From Spirochaetota bacterium (lineage in GTDB: Bacteria > Spirochaetota > UBA4802 > UBA5550), in assembly GCA_009787025.1 (NCBI GenBank), contig WRGT01000063.1:1-45330 (forward strand): a stretch of DNA of 45,330 nucleotides, written 5' to 3'. Made by a program: the position numbers and the translations under genes. Positions 30,619 to 35,379 of this stretch are shown piece after piece (positions within the stretch are counted from its first letter, which is position 1; each line of letters starts with the position of its first letter). Below the pieces are notes generated by a model. That model had not been told where the DNA came from. It did no database searches and worked only from the letters and a program-made list of their open reading frames with translations.

Positions 30619-33399
30619 TTATTTTTTTGCTTTGGTCTGAATTTCCAGTCGCGTTTTAAGCGTGTCCGGATCAATGGAAAATTCTAACCTCATGCTCTGC
30701 ATTTCATCTATAATCACTTGTCGATATGTATCGGGCAATTTATTGGTTTGATATAATGTTTCTTCGCTCCAGGCAGTTGACTTCCAGCGGTCAGGCTGTT
30801 CTTGGTTTGCCGCTACAAAAGTTCCTCCTAATGGACAGAGCAGACTTTGATTCTGCACTGCCTTTAATGCGCCGGTCAGGTCTTGAGGCTGTAGTTGCTG
30901 CTGATATGCGTGAAGAAGGAGCGCATTGCCTGCGGATGTACGCCGGTCTCTGGTATAAGCTTCTGCGTGTAAAAAATTCCCAAAACGGCTTTTACTTAAA
31001 TCGCCCAGATTCAGAGATATTTGGCTCGGATGATCTGTTTTTTCAATGCGAATCTTGGGAGAAACAGTTTCCAAAAGTGACCGCCCTGTGGCGATTATAT
31101 AGTATGAGTCAAAACGGCGCGCCCAGAGCTCGTTTTTCGGTCCAAAATATTCATTCAGCTTTACATATCCCTTGGCGTCCGGTTTTGTTTCAGGCCGCAG
31201 ACTATATGACAGAGCCTCTTCGTCTATATTAGGCGGGACCGTGATACCTGCATAGAATTTAAGATCATAAGTCGCTATTTTATTCACTATTTTCTCCAGT
31301 TTATCCGAGTAATATGCTCCGCTGGTCACTCCATGCTGAATTGACCATGGGATATCCATATCCCGTAAGGCGCCAAAAATGCGCAATGAGAAAGGTTTCG
31401 ATTTCTTCACCGCCTTTTTGGTATTCACTTCATCATCGTCTTCATCTTCCTGAAACAATTCTCTAATGAGATGTCTTGCCAATTGTACTTCTAAAGAAAC
31501 AAGATCACCGGAGATCATGGCTACGCGGTCACGCGCAGGTTCGCCTAAGAACTGATCCAAATTACCATAACGTGATTTGGCATAGGGGCTTATGCTCAGT
31601 TTAAGTTCCAATCGTTCTCCGTTGTTTTTTTTATCGTTGTTCAGTAATCCGAAAACAGGATCCATATTTGTCCAGATGCCGCTATAGGCATTGGCGAAAT
31701 CTTTATAGGCTTCCGCTTCCGCAGAGGTGATTTTGTCTATTGTCACATCAGGAACTGGAATAAAGGAACCCAAAGCTCCCCGCTTACTGTCCGCAGCTGC
31801 GCCGTCTTCTTCAAGTGTAGGACGAGATTTGTCCGGACGCAGACCAAATCCTTTGGGCAAGAATCCTTTTTCTATCAGTGATTGTATGGAAGGCGATGCA
31901 ATGCCTTCCTGTAATGCTGCAAGACGCGCTAAGGATAACATCTGTAATTCGGCTATGGACCCGGAGCGCCGCGTCATTTCCACACGATATGCCGGGCTGA
32001 CTAAGTTGCGGAAGAAGGGATCGGACATATAAATGAATATACCTTTTTCCGAAAAGTCTATCTGACTGCGGGCATAACGAAATTCCTTAAGACTGCCCAG
32101 ACTTTGATTGGATGTCTTTGTTGCGAGGAAGGCTTGTACTATCCGGCTTGATGTTGTGACTAAATGAAAATCTCCATCCTGTACATAAAAGGAGCGTACC
32201 TCATTGCCGGTCGATGACAGCAGGGATATTGTGCGTCCGTTTATTGTTACGGAAGATTCTTTCACAGAGGGGTTTTCTTTTAGAACATCGCTGCGGAGAG
32301 AATCTAACTGATTTTTTAAGAGAGTGTTACTTTTCGCTTCAAAGAGAATACCTATTGCTGCGCCTTCACGCAGGAATGTATCCGTACCGATTATTGCCAC
32401 GTCCTTGATCACAGAGCTGCCGAAATACCGGCTCAAGGCTGTTTCCTTCAGCGCAAGCTGGCGTTCTATGCGTTTTGCCATGGCATAATCAGCGCTCCGT
32501 GAAGACAGGGTAGAGCGAAGGATTGTACCCCAGCGGTCTAAAAAATCTCTTGCTTCCAGAAAGGCTGAAAATGATCCGAAGCGGAGATAAAAACATTCCT
32601 GAGGCACACGCATAGCTATAGGCTCAACCTTGACCTTGCTTTCATTGAAATGAGGTATGGGCATAGGCGGAGGAGATACAGCTTTAGGGAGATTTTGATT
32701 TGCAATTTCGACTTTGTCCTTTGTATTCAACATGGTATTGGTCTGCATAGCCAGACGAATGGATTCTGTTCCAAGAAGCAGACCGAACACGTGATCAAAC
32801 TCTTTTCTGTCATAATTATACTCGGGTGTAAGATCCTTCATGGGTAAACCCAGACGTCGGCTCATCATGGATGCTATGCCTAATTCAACGGAAGGATCGT
32901 AAAGGTCAAGGGAAATGAGAATCTCAAGTTTCGCGATGTAGGCGTTCCACCATTCTTTTATCAGTTCCTTGCGTCGTACTTCGTTTTTAACAGGTTTAAT
33001 CTTTATTTTTTCACGAAACGCTTCAAATCCTGTCTTGGCAAGAATCACATCCAATTCATCAGATCCATGAAAGAGAAACAGCATGGTCTTGTTGTGGTAA
33101 TCGCCTGATTTACCGGCATCGACATTCCATGCGGGATACAGAGAGCGTTTCTTGCTTTCATAAACCGATGCCTGATAGAAAAATTCAAAAAGTGACGCAG
33201 CGGAATAAATATTATCTAAATCATAGACGTTTTGGGAAACTATTTTTTGTTCCGTATTAGACATGGGAAGTTCAATGCGGCAAACGCCGAAGGGTTCGCC
33301 AAAAAAAGCCTCGGCTTTCAGGGCAAGGGCTTGAATTTGTATCAGCGCAAGAAACAGGAAAGAAAATAAAGGTATCATAAAAAAGTATGAGCGTTTCAT
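30619..33399 (-). CDS. Large exported protein of unknown function (926 aa)
   Basis: A secreted or periplasmic protein with a Sec signal (MKRSYFFMIPLFSFLFLALI, cleavage near ALALKAEA). The start at 33399 is chosen for GGAG 7 nt upstream; the longer frame to 33504 adds 35 residues that cross the promoter. I do not recognise a named family. The middle (about 300-480: a self-contained alpha/beta region with FYVQDGDFHLVTTSSRIVQ, then LGSLKEFRYARSQI) recalls DUF3352-like repeats, but this is weak. The rest shows no catalytic motif. The gene is GC-richer than its neighbours and has its own promoter. trpB2 lies upstream on the same strand. Confidence 0.8.
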   Translation of the reverse strand: MKRSYFFMIPLFSFLFLALIQIQALALKAEAFFGEPFGVCRIELPMSNTEQKIVSQNVYDLDNIYSAASLFEFFYQASVYESKKRSLYPAWNVDAGKSGDYHNKTMLFLFHGSDELDVILAKTGFEAFREKIKIKPVKNEVRRKELIKEWWNAYIAKLEILISLDLYDPSVELGIASMMSRRLGLPMKDLTPEYNYDRKEFDHVFGLLLGTESIRLAMQTNTMLNTKDKVEIANQNLPKAVSPPPMPIPHFNESKVKVEPIAMRVPQECFYLRFGSFSAFLEARDFLDRWGTILRSTLSSRSADYAMAKRIERQLALKETALSRYFGSSVIKDVAIIGTDTFLREGAAIGILFEAKSNTLLKNQLDSLRSDVLKENPSVKESSVTINGRTISLLSSTGNEVRSFYVQDGDFHLVTTSSRIVQAFLATKTSNQSLGSLKEFRYARSQIDFSEKGIFIYMSDPFFRNLVSPAYRVEMTRRSGSIAELQMLSLARLAALQEGIASPSIQSLIEKGFLPKGFGLRPDKSRPTLEEDGAAADSKRGALGSFIPVPDVTIDKITSAEAEAYKDFANAYSGIWTNMDPVFGLLNNDKKNNGERLELKLSISPYAKSRYGNLDQFLGEPARDRVAMISGDLVSLEVQLARHLIRELFQEDEDDDEVNTKKAVKKSKPFSLRIFGALRDMDIPWSIQHGVTSGAYYSDKLEKIVNKIATYDLKFYAGITVPPNIDEEALSYSLRPETKPDAKGYVKLNEYFGPKNELWARRFDSYYIIATGRSLLETVSPKIRIEKTDHPSQISLNLGDLSKSRFGNFLHAEAYTRDRRTSAGNALLLHAYQQQLQPQDLTGALKAVQNQSLLCPLGGTFVAANQEQPDRWKSTAWSEETLYQTNKLPDTYRQVIIDEMQSMRLEFSIDPDTLKTRLEIQTKAKK

Positions 33400-33442
33400 A
33401 GGAATCTCCAATATTGATATGATGGGTAACAGACTTAAAAGG

Positions 33443-33471
33443 AACATATCCTGCAGCATTGAAGATGTCAA
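33443..33471 (-). promoter_or_regulatory. Promoter of the 926-aa exported protein gene
   Basis: On the minus strand: TTGACA (33466-33471, perfect), a 17-nt spacer and TATGTT (33443-33448), about 45 nt ahead of the ATG at 33399. It lies between the hairpin at 33490-33524 and the gene. Confidence 0.5.
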
Positions 33472-33489
33472 TATAAAAAGGAATGTTTG

Positions 33490-33524
33490 TCTGAAAATGG
33501 GCATAAACTGCGCCCATTTTCAGA
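33490..33524. other. 13-bp stem hairpin between trpB2 and the exported protein gene
   Basis: CTGAAAATGGGC (33491-33502) pairs perfectly with GCCCATTTTCAG (33512-33523) around a 9-nt loop; the flanking T/A pair (33490/33524) extends the stem. On the minus strand it follows trpB2 by about 45 nt, but no U-run follows, so it could be a Rho-assisted terminator or an operator for the downstream promoter. Confidence 0.6.
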
Positions 33525-33567: not shown

Positions 33568-34950
33568 TTACCCTCTGTTTTGAGGAATGTCGGGAATACT
33601 TGCAAAGCCTCGTTCCAGATCCTCATCACTCGGAATATAGTCAGACATTGTCTTGTTGTTATACTCCATGTAGGCGCTTAAATCAAAATATCCTGTGCCA
33701 GACAAACCAAAGAGTATAACCTTCTTTTCTCCGGTTTTTTTACATTCCAAAGCTTCGTCTATGGCTGCTTTGATGGCATGGGAAGATTCGGGCGCAGGGA
33801 GTATCCCTTCAACCTTCATAAACTTTATAGCCGCATCAAAAACATCAGTCTGTACTTCTGCTCTGGCTTCAAGAAAGCCGTCCTTGTACAGTTTACTCAG
33901 AGTGGAATTCATGCCGTGGTAACGGAGACCTCCCGCATGATTTGCCGAAGGAATAAAACCGCTCCCCAGAGTCATCATCTTGATGAGCGGAGTAGTTTTA
34001 GCCGTATCCCCAAAGTCATATGCATAGCGGCCTCGCGTAAATGTAGGGCAGGAAGCCGGTTCTACTGCAATAAAACGGGCTTTGGATTTTCCCGCTAATT
34101 TTTCTCCCATGAAAGGACCTATGAGTCCGCCAAGATTTGACCCGCCTCCTGCGCAGCCGATTATAATGTCAGGCTTTATTCCGTATTTGTCCATTGCGGC
34201 TTTTGCTTCCTGCCCGATGATGGACTGGTGCAGCAGTACGTGGTTTAGGACGCTTCCCAAAACATAGCGGCACTTTTCTGTCTTTACAGCCTTCTCTACC
34301 GCTTCGGAAATGGCACAGCCCAAAGAACCGCCAGTATTAGGATCTTTTGCCAGAATGGCTTTCCCGGATTCGGTGGTATTAGACGGAGAAGGAATTAGCT
34401 GCGCGCCGTATGTTTCAATCAGGGCTTTGCGAAAAACTTTCTGCTCGGAGCTTACCTTGACCATATAGACTGTCAAACCCAGACCGTAAAAACCTGTTGC
34501 CATAGCCATGGCTGTTCCCCATTGTCCTGCGCCGGTTTCTGTTGTTACTGAGGTTAGTCCGTCTTCTTTGGCATAAAAGGCTTGCGGTCCTGCAGAATTG
34601 AGTTTATGGGACCCTGAAGTATTGGTTCCTTCAAATTTGTAATATATTTCCGCAGGGGTTCCCAAAGCTTTTTCCAAAAAATAAGCCCGAATAAGAGGTG
34701 CAGGTCTATAGGCTCTGTAAAATTCCTGAATGCCTTCGGGAATCGGAATGAAACGGGTAGTATCATCAAGTTCCTGTTTGACCGGTTCTTTACAGAACAC
34801 AGGTTCCAGATCGGTTACTGTTGCAGGTTTCAATGTTCCGGGATGAAGTAACGGATCAGGCTTATTCTTCATGTCTGCGCGAAGATTATACCAGTATTTT
34901 GGAATCTCGTCTTCCGAGAGATAGAGTCTTGTTGGGATTTTCGTTGTCAT
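33568..34950 (-). CDS. TrpB2-type tryptophan synthase beta chain
   Basis: A PLP enzyme that condenses indole with serine to tryptophan. It is 460 aa, longer than canonical TrpB. PLP lysine Lys116 lies in GTNTSGSHKLNSA, the catalytic glutamate in VTTETGAGQWGTA (the Trp variant marks the TrpB2 group), and the PLP phosphate cup in IGCAGGGSNLGG. No trpA lies nearby, which fits TrpB2 enzymes that act alone, perhaps salvaging indole. The start at 34950 follows a strong AAGGAG; the frame extends 8 codons further upstream without support. It is GC-rich relative to the window average and preceded by an 18-bp perfect palindrome. Confidence 0.93.
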   Translation of the reverse strand: MTTKIPTRLYLSEDEIPKYWYNLRADMKNKPDPLLHPGTLKPATVTDLEPVFCKEPVKQELDDTTRFIPIPEGIQEFYRAYRPAPLIRAYFLEKALGTPAEIYYKFEGTNTSGSHKLNSAGPQAFYAKEDGLTSVTTETGAGQWGTAMAMATGFYGLGLTVYMVKVSSEQKVFRKALIETYGAQLIPSPSNTTESGKAILAKDPNTGGSLGCAISEAVEKAVKTEKCRYVLGSVLNHVLLHQSIIGQEAKAAMDKYGIKPDIIIGCAGGGSNLGGLIGPFMGEKLAGKSKARFIAVEPASCPTFTRGRYAYDFGDTAKTTPLIKMMTLGSGFIPSANHAGGLRYHGMNSTLSKLYKDGFLEARAEVQTDVFDAAIKFMKVEGILPAPESSHAIKAAIDEALECKKTGEKKVILFGLSGTGYFDLSAYMEYNNKTMSDYIPSDEDLERGFASIPDIPQNRG

Positions 34951-35004
34951 AATATTCTCCTTGCGCTCGGACATTTAGCCGGGCATATAAATTTTATTGG
35001 AAGA

Positions 35005-35044
35005 ATGTTTCTATTTATAGAAGCGATTCTATAAATAGAAACAT
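35005..35044. promoter_or_regulatory. 18-bp perfect palindrome upstream of trpB2
   Basis: ATGTTTCTATTTATAGAA (35005-35022) and its exact reverse complement (35027-35044) are separated by GCGA. The 40-nt element lies 55-95 nt before the trpB2 start. Such a long perfect hairpin in a leader could be an RNA attenuator stem, or a tandem operator for a dimeric regulator. The surrounding sequence to 35130 is AT-rich. No second copy is seen in the window. Confidence 0.7.
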
Positions 35045-35193
35045 CGTAAAACAGGTAAAATCTGTCAAGGGGATTTTTTAAAAAATTTTAGAAAAAAATT
35101 ATTTTTTTTTAATTTTGTCTATTATGGTTAAATTAAATGAAAAAATGAAGCAATATCACTGGTTATAAATTATGATATTTGGGAGAAATTTGA

Positions 35194-35379
35194 TTATTTC
35201 TTTATTTGCGCTCTTATTGATTTTATGGATTCTCGCATTGGTTTAATTTTCCCCTGCTTAATTTGATTTAATCCTTCATCAATTAAAGAATACAGTTCTA
35301 ATTTTCCTGATAGCATTTCATATGTTTCTATGCTCATTACGGCAAGATCTCCGGTTCCGTTTTTTGTTATTAGGACGGG
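35194..35379 (-). pseudogene. Phd/YefM antitoxin remnant lacking its N terminus
   Basis: On the minus strand an open stretch reads PVLITKNGTGDLAVMSIETY, then EMLSGKLELYSLIDEGLNQI, and ends at TAA 35194. This is the C-terminal two thirds of a Phd/YefM antitoxin. The preceding codon is a TGA stop (35380-35382), and the usual N-terminal DNA-binding part is absent upstream. No toxin gene follows downstream. The fragment is probably what remains of a toxin-antitoxin module. Confidence 0.7.

Follow-up and report, generated by a model that had tools for sequence, protein, structure and literature searches.

What a perfect 18-bp inverted repeat does in front of trpB2, a gene for a TrpB-like PLP enzyme, is the question raised by this locus, which lies in the window, the whole 45,330-nt stretch of spirochaete DNA that we analysed. 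The repeat occupies positions 35005–35044 and reads ATGTTTCTATTTATAGAA-GCGA-TTCTATAAATAGAAACAT, with 18 perfect pairs enclosing the 4-nt loop GCGA. An earlier note had described it as a hairpin 55–95 nt before the start codon, a distance that is true for the ATG at 34950 (the reading-frame listing of the window gives a further in-frame ATG upstream, at 34974), and as too long to be chance. RNA folding of the 40-mer bears out the latter claim, giving −19.2 kcal/mol and a z-score of −10.75, with 0 of 200 shuffles folding as well. Moreover, the repeat is the sole fully complementary one among the 12 listed in the 45-kb window whose arms measure at least 14 nt and lie at most 60 nt apart. A separate inverted repeat, with 24-nt arms that are 88% complementary, is present at positions 7–71, the very start of the contig.

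Closer to the sequence, each arm of the repeat is itself a dyad, TTCTAT-TT-ATAGAA in one and TTCTAT-AA-ATAGAA in the other, a feature that the earlier note overlooked. The short palindrome TTCTATwwATAGAA is present in two head-to-tail copies, at 35009–35022 and 35027–35040, with their centres 18 bp apart. Since a palindrome repeated side by side necessarily makes a larger inverted repeat, the long 18-bp hairpin needs no separate explanation; the object is most likely best read as two tandem palindromes and not as one RNA hairpin, the hairpin being a by-product. A striking "RNA hairpin" can thus arise simply from two tandem operators. The elements of the locus are as follows.

33568–34950, minus strand: trpB2, the putatively controlled gene, encoding a TrpB-like PLP enzyme that scores above the cut-offs of NF009057 and TIGR01415
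34958–34963, minus strand: ribosome-binding site AAGGAG, from the sequence
35005–35044, no strand assigned: the 40-nt inverted repeat, that is, both tandem dyads together
35009–35022, minus strand: dyad 2, core TTCTATAAATAGAA, centre 18 bp from that of dyad 1, outer flank ACAT
35027–35040, minus strand: dyad 1, promoter-proximal, core TTCTATTTATAGAA in the minus-strand reading, outer flank ATGT common to relatives
35040–35045, minus strand: predicted −10 element GATGTT, 17 nt after the −35 element, overlapping dyad 1; TATGTT in many relatives
35063–35068, minus strand: predicted −35 element TTGACA; the position of TTGAC is kept in most site-bearing trpB2 leaders of relatives

Read along the minus strand, the order is TTGACA, 17 nt, GATGTT, dyad 1, dyad 2, AAGGAG and the ATG at 34950. 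A simple promoter scan did not list the trpB2 promoter, and the −10 element in the window is weak, matching TATAAT at 3 of 6 positions. A transcript from the predicted promoter would start near 35033, within dyad 1. As the dyads overlap the predicted promoter, transcription probably starts within or after them.

We consider it highly probable that the two dyads form a tandem operator pair for a TrpR-family, tryptophan-dependent repressor and that this pair overlaps the trpB2 promoter; the dyads, their conservation, their place relative to TTGACA and their occurrence at trp genes and before trpR are observed, and from these we infer TrpR binding, tryptophan dependence, repression and the use of indole by the enzyme. 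When tryptophan is plentiful, a TrpR-type dimer would bind L-tryptophan and sit on one or both of the dyads (consensus ATGTTTCTATATATAGAAACAT), and with the dyads occupied RNA polymerase would be blocked at the trpB2 promoter. When tryptophan is short, the repressor would leave, trpB2 would be made and indole would be converted to tryptophan.

A palindrome of this kind, with a perfect inverted repeat and AT-rich arms, could also belong to a REP- or MITE-like repeat family or have arisen by chance. A genome-wide copy search of the 1.66-Mb assembly found the exact dyad at two places, both at this locus, and no other exact copy, so that the element is single-copy in the genome as assembled. With up to one mismatch the dyad occurs in the same genome at 15 places against 17 in the reversed control, and with up to two mismatches the site occurs at 14 against 21, both of which are background. 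Likewise, the bare 16-mer shows no genome-wide enrichment at up to two mismatches, with 89 places summed over 17 genomes against 97 in the reversed control. From the 17-genome search only places beside trp genes or picked for inspection were followed up, and six sites from that search (L178, L183, L186, L189, L190 and L195), which lie within coding sequence or next to genes of unrelated function, were taken as chance. As the element, moreover, keeps its position at trp genes throughout the phylum, a repeat-family or chance origin is exceedingly improbable.

Conservation before trpB2 was examined in 44 leaders, that of the window and those of 43 spirochaete loci from the 80 trpB2 loci found in genome contigs. 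A leader was counted as site-bearing when it had, 20–200 nt upstream, a match of at least 13 out of 16 that kept six or more of the eight symmetric pairs; shuffles preserved dinucleotides where the shuffle closed and were otherwise mononucleotide. By this rule 27 of the 44 spirochaete leaders have the dyad, compared with 20 of 2200 shuffled ones. Both outcomes that the earlier note named as refuting the element, many unrelated copies across the genome and a lack of conservation before trpB2 in relatives, thus turned out in its favour. Five of 37 non-spirochaete leaders passed the loose rule, with weak A/T-rich matches of 13–14 points. L025 and L033, in which the dyad appears altered or shortened by eye, were scored as lacking it. 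The site also keeps its place relative to the promoter. The distance from TTGAC to the first dyad is 26–28 nt in 18 of the 27 site-bearing leaders and 22 nt in seven, with no TTGAC nearby in the other two; at the 26–28-nt spacing the likely −10 element, commonly TATGTT, runs into the dyad at its left edge, and at 22 nt this element falls inside the dyad. By inspection, the dyad is tandem in 14 and single in 13 of these 27 leaders. Tandem sites are found too in G001, G014 and G016, which belong to the window's own family and carry a trpB2 from a different branch, the second site being weak in G001. In G059, a Treponema MAG, there are two trpB2 copies (L013 and L015), each with its own TTACT-type site.

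The earlier note had offered two readings, a new kind of operator or an RNA-based switch, either of them controlling tryptophan or indole salvage, and these leaders bear on the choice. A transcribed 18-bp hairpin in the 5′ UTR could act as a riboswitch, an attenuator or an mRNA stabiliser, and the fold of −19.2 kcal/mol is very stable. Pairing itself is of little help here. In 17 tandem leaders, Watson–Crick pairs number 217 of 272 within sites and 220 of 272 between sites, so that the between-site pairing a hairpin needs is kept about as well as that within sites and pairing alone cannot separate operator from hairpin. L026 even pairs throughout once G-U pairs are counted. The other 16 tandem leaders are, by contrast, never fully Watson–Crick paired between sites (11–14 of 16). 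As to the compensatory changes suggested as a check on the arms, we found them only within individual dyads, as matched changes on the two sides in L014 and L015 (TTACT...AGTAA); pairing between the arms of the long hairpin is kept neither better nor worse than inside the dyads. A long hairpin also cannot form where there is a single site, as in the 13 of 27 spirochaete trpB2 leaders and in most trpE and trpD leaders, and the centre-to-centre distance between dyads varies, from 18–19 at trpB2 to 22–25 at trpE and trpD. Furthermore, the dyads overlap the predicted promoter, and an Rfam search of the whole window at gathering thresholds gave no match to a T-box or other known RNA leader; an intrinsic terminator was likewise considered and dropped, the terminator scan having listed none. 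RNA control of a related gene does occur, in that Rfam finds a T-box in 10 of the 12 non-spirochaete (clostridial) trpB2 leaders given. On balance we regard an RNA element as very unlikely at the spirochaete locus. The operator half of the earlier proposal is strongly supported, the same dyad being found elsewhere at trpB2, trpE, trpD, trpX and trpR promoters, and the RNA-switch half is not supported.

The site at other tryptophan genes is already evident in the same-genus genome G001, where a perfect TTTCTATATATAGAAA stands before trpE-trpG and another before trpD-trpC. Among the 40 genomes searched, 15 have TrpE matches and nine of these 15 carry the site before trpE; G016, G063 and G075, with an incomplete leader or match, stand outside the site count. 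G080, G081 and G084 have no site before trpE and no detected TrpR; they serve as weak negative controls, because their trpE lies close behind another reading frame and may lack its own promoter. A 14-point match in G084 (L207) was rejected as a ribosome-site stretch. TrpD matches were found in 21 of the 40 genomes and the site stands directly before trpD in six of the 21; elsewhere trpD sometimes lies behind trpE.

We then searched 392 Spirochaetota genomes with the pattern TTGACA-N9..19-TTWCTNTATANAGWAAC. Its 15 matches fall in 11 genomes, and the reversed control had none. The genes behind these matches are trpE (10), trpD (2), trpX (1) and paaK-like genes (2). The trpX product is a TrpX-type binding protein of a tryptophan ABC transporter, its only family match, at 266 bits, lying below the 390-bit cut-off. 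The pattern was derived from trp-gene leaders including those of G001, so the two G001 matches are not independent; nor are those in G392 and G415, genomes that look the same as G095 and G094. Eight pattern genomes were not used in building the pattern: G006, G009, G010, G266, G274, G278, G317 and G426. Taken with the leaders above, a palindromic site overlaps promoters of tryptophan biosynthesis or transport genes at trpB2, trpE, trpD and trpX. The two paaK-like matches, L264 in G278 and L265 in G426, stand before phenylacetate-CoA-ligase-like genes, both below family cut-offs, and may hint at TrpR-type control of an arylacetate or indoleacetate route.

Because we infer the binding of TrpR, an operator for some other, non-TrpR transcription factor controlling the tryptophan genes has to be weighed, and the distribution of TrpR is the first evidence that bears on it. 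Proteins above the cut-off of Pfam PF01371 (Trp_repressor) are found in 226 of 392 genomes across the phylum. Two smaller sets gave 20 of 28 genomes, with one genome counted twice (G052 and G074), and 15 of 35, clostridia included. All 11 pattern-match genomes have a PF01371 protein. The strict pattern, a narrow one, matches just 11 of the 226 TrpR-bearing genomes, and sites of another kind may serve in other lineages. We tallied site and TrpR across the 42 spirochaete genomes for which there is a trpB2 leader: both occur in 20, the site alone in five, TrpR alone in one and neither in 16. Of the 25 genomes that have the site before trpB2, 20 therefore encode TrpR, against one of the 17 that lack it (Fisher P = 3e-6). 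This value overstates independence, as a single TrpB2 clade accounts for 12 of the 16 genomes lacking both, and 10 changes of the site label are required on the tree. The five genomes with the site and no detected PF01371 protein, one of which is the window's own, favour another factor; the window's genome is, however, just 73.6% complete, and the same-genus genome G001 has TrpR.

Gene order provides stronger evidence for TrpR than these co-occurrence counts. Comparison of coordinates places trpR 13–290 nt upstream of a trpB2 homologue (~50% identical) and on its strand in at least 18 genomes. The dyad stands before trpR, with TTGACA upstream of it, in 16 of 18 such trpR-trpB2 operons, and the dyad turned up in 31 of 1800 mononucleotide shuffles; the exceptions are G051, with at best a half site, and G033, with a degenerate one. 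Five of the operons (G004, G012, G015, G017 and G018) have before trpR the same 18-bp tandem as the window. Stand-alone trpR genes are different, with none of 20 loci (L123–L142, two of them from one genome) carrying a site at a score of at least 14. Autoregulation is thus a feature of the operon form. A shared promoter of trpR and the trpB2 homologue, with the site at 16 of 18, together with the presence of TrpR in every pattern genome, makes a non-TrpR factor unlikely.

The sequence of the protein is compatible with TrpR as the repressor. A profile of the spirochaete proteins matches E. coli TrpR structures at 1.3e-8. All 14 spirochaete TrpR sequences are invariant at the residues aligned with E. 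coli T44, R54, R84 and G85, for which we assume the E. coli numbering and roles in contacting ligand and DNA. The segment aligned with E. coli I79-A80-T81 is L-C-K in 12 of the 14 and L-C-R in two. In all six TrpR compared, four operon-type, one from Treponema and one same-genus, the stretch LCKITRGS is identical, which is in line with a shared operator unlike that of E. coli. NCBIfam TIGR01321 is the best match of the two TrpR tested, at 57.8 and 49.1 bits against a cut-off of 67.25; both pass the Pfam cut-off. As the two fall below the NCBIfam equivalog cut-off, we call the protein TrpR-type.

The proposed system resembles that of E. coli in having a palindromic operator at the promoters of trp genes and of trpR, and in a TrpR-family protein that keeps the ligand-pocket residues in the alignment. 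It differs in the operator itself. The E. coli trp operator contains CTAG in its half-sites, whereas the spirochaete site is TTTCTATATATAGAAA, with half-sites TTWCTATA, and there is no CTAG in the site of the window. The L-C-K or L-C-R segment replaces I79-A80-T81, the sites are often tandem with an 18-bp centre spacing, and a stand-alone trpB2 is a key target. E. coli TrpR controls trpEDCBA, mtr, trpR, aroH and aroL, and the same source describes lineage-specific changes of the TrpR motif among gammaproteobacterial regulons (PMC5343134), a precedent for operator drift.

In Chlamydia trachomatis, trpRBA likewise has trpR in an operon with the tryptophan synthase beta subunit, and TrpR regulates this subunit, used in indole salvage (PMC6504234, PMC7755916). 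There, in contrast to the spirochaete TrpB2-type enzyme, TrpB works together with TrpA, and YtgR acts as a second regulator that depends on iron. The related clostridial gene is also apparently controlled by amino-acid supply. Its T-box leader is a tRNA-sensing RNA in place of a protein-DNA operator and probably answers to the same amino acid. The emergence of trpR has been placed within the gammaproteobacteria (PMC1173090). In the literature searched, we found no description of a spirochaete TrpR operator or regulon. The kind of element is known, and the operator, the regulon and the phylum are new as far as our searches reach. The assignment gives TrpR-family proteins an operator and a regulon in a phylum for which our literature searches yielded none. 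It provides a testable DNA sequence, protein and gene list, and predicts which spirochaete genes respond to tryptophan. A stand-alone trpB2 that is controlled like a tryptophan gene would also support a role for the enzyme in turning indole into tryptophan.

The trpB2 of the window appears to have a history of its own. An adjoining class-I adenylate cyclase (PF01295) is 73% identical to that of the same-genus genome, and a search of seven Treponema-like genomes did not find it, so the contig belongs to its genome. TrpB2 of the window, on the other hand, is 87% identical to that of Treponema L018 and groups, with full support, in a clade of 49 rows that consists for the most part of Treponema MAGs, presumably from termite guts judging by isolate names; the same-genus TrpB2 lies on another branch of the tree. 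Thus, trpB2 and its operator were probably acquired by horizontal transfer from Treponema relatives. Within its 73.6%-complete assembly the window's genome has no detectable TrpE, TrpD, second TrpB or TrpR, which suggests an indole-scavenging auxotroph. G052, which is 94% complete, shows the same pattern of missing tryptophan genes, yet TrpR is present.

We tentatively propose, at somewhat less than even likelihood, that the Spirochaetota have a tryptophan regulon of their own. It would be run by a branch of TrpR whose recognition helix differs in sequence and reads a non-CTAG operator, often an 18-bp-spaced tandem. The trpR-operator-trpB2 unit, or operator-trpB2, would move among gut spirochaetes as a ready-regulated indole-scavenging module, with TrpR kept chiefly for scavenging where trpE and trpD have been lost.

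Two further reading frames flank the trpB2 unit in the window, both on the minus strand. Directly downstream, at 30619–33504, is a 961-aa open reading frame with no Pfam match at an E value of 0.001. Upstream of the trpB2 promoter, at 35203–35379, an open stretch without a start (PVLITKNGTGDLAVMSIETYEMLSGKLELYSLIDEGLNQIKQGKIKPMRES...) resembles what we take to be the C-terminal part of a Phd/YefM-type antitoxin.
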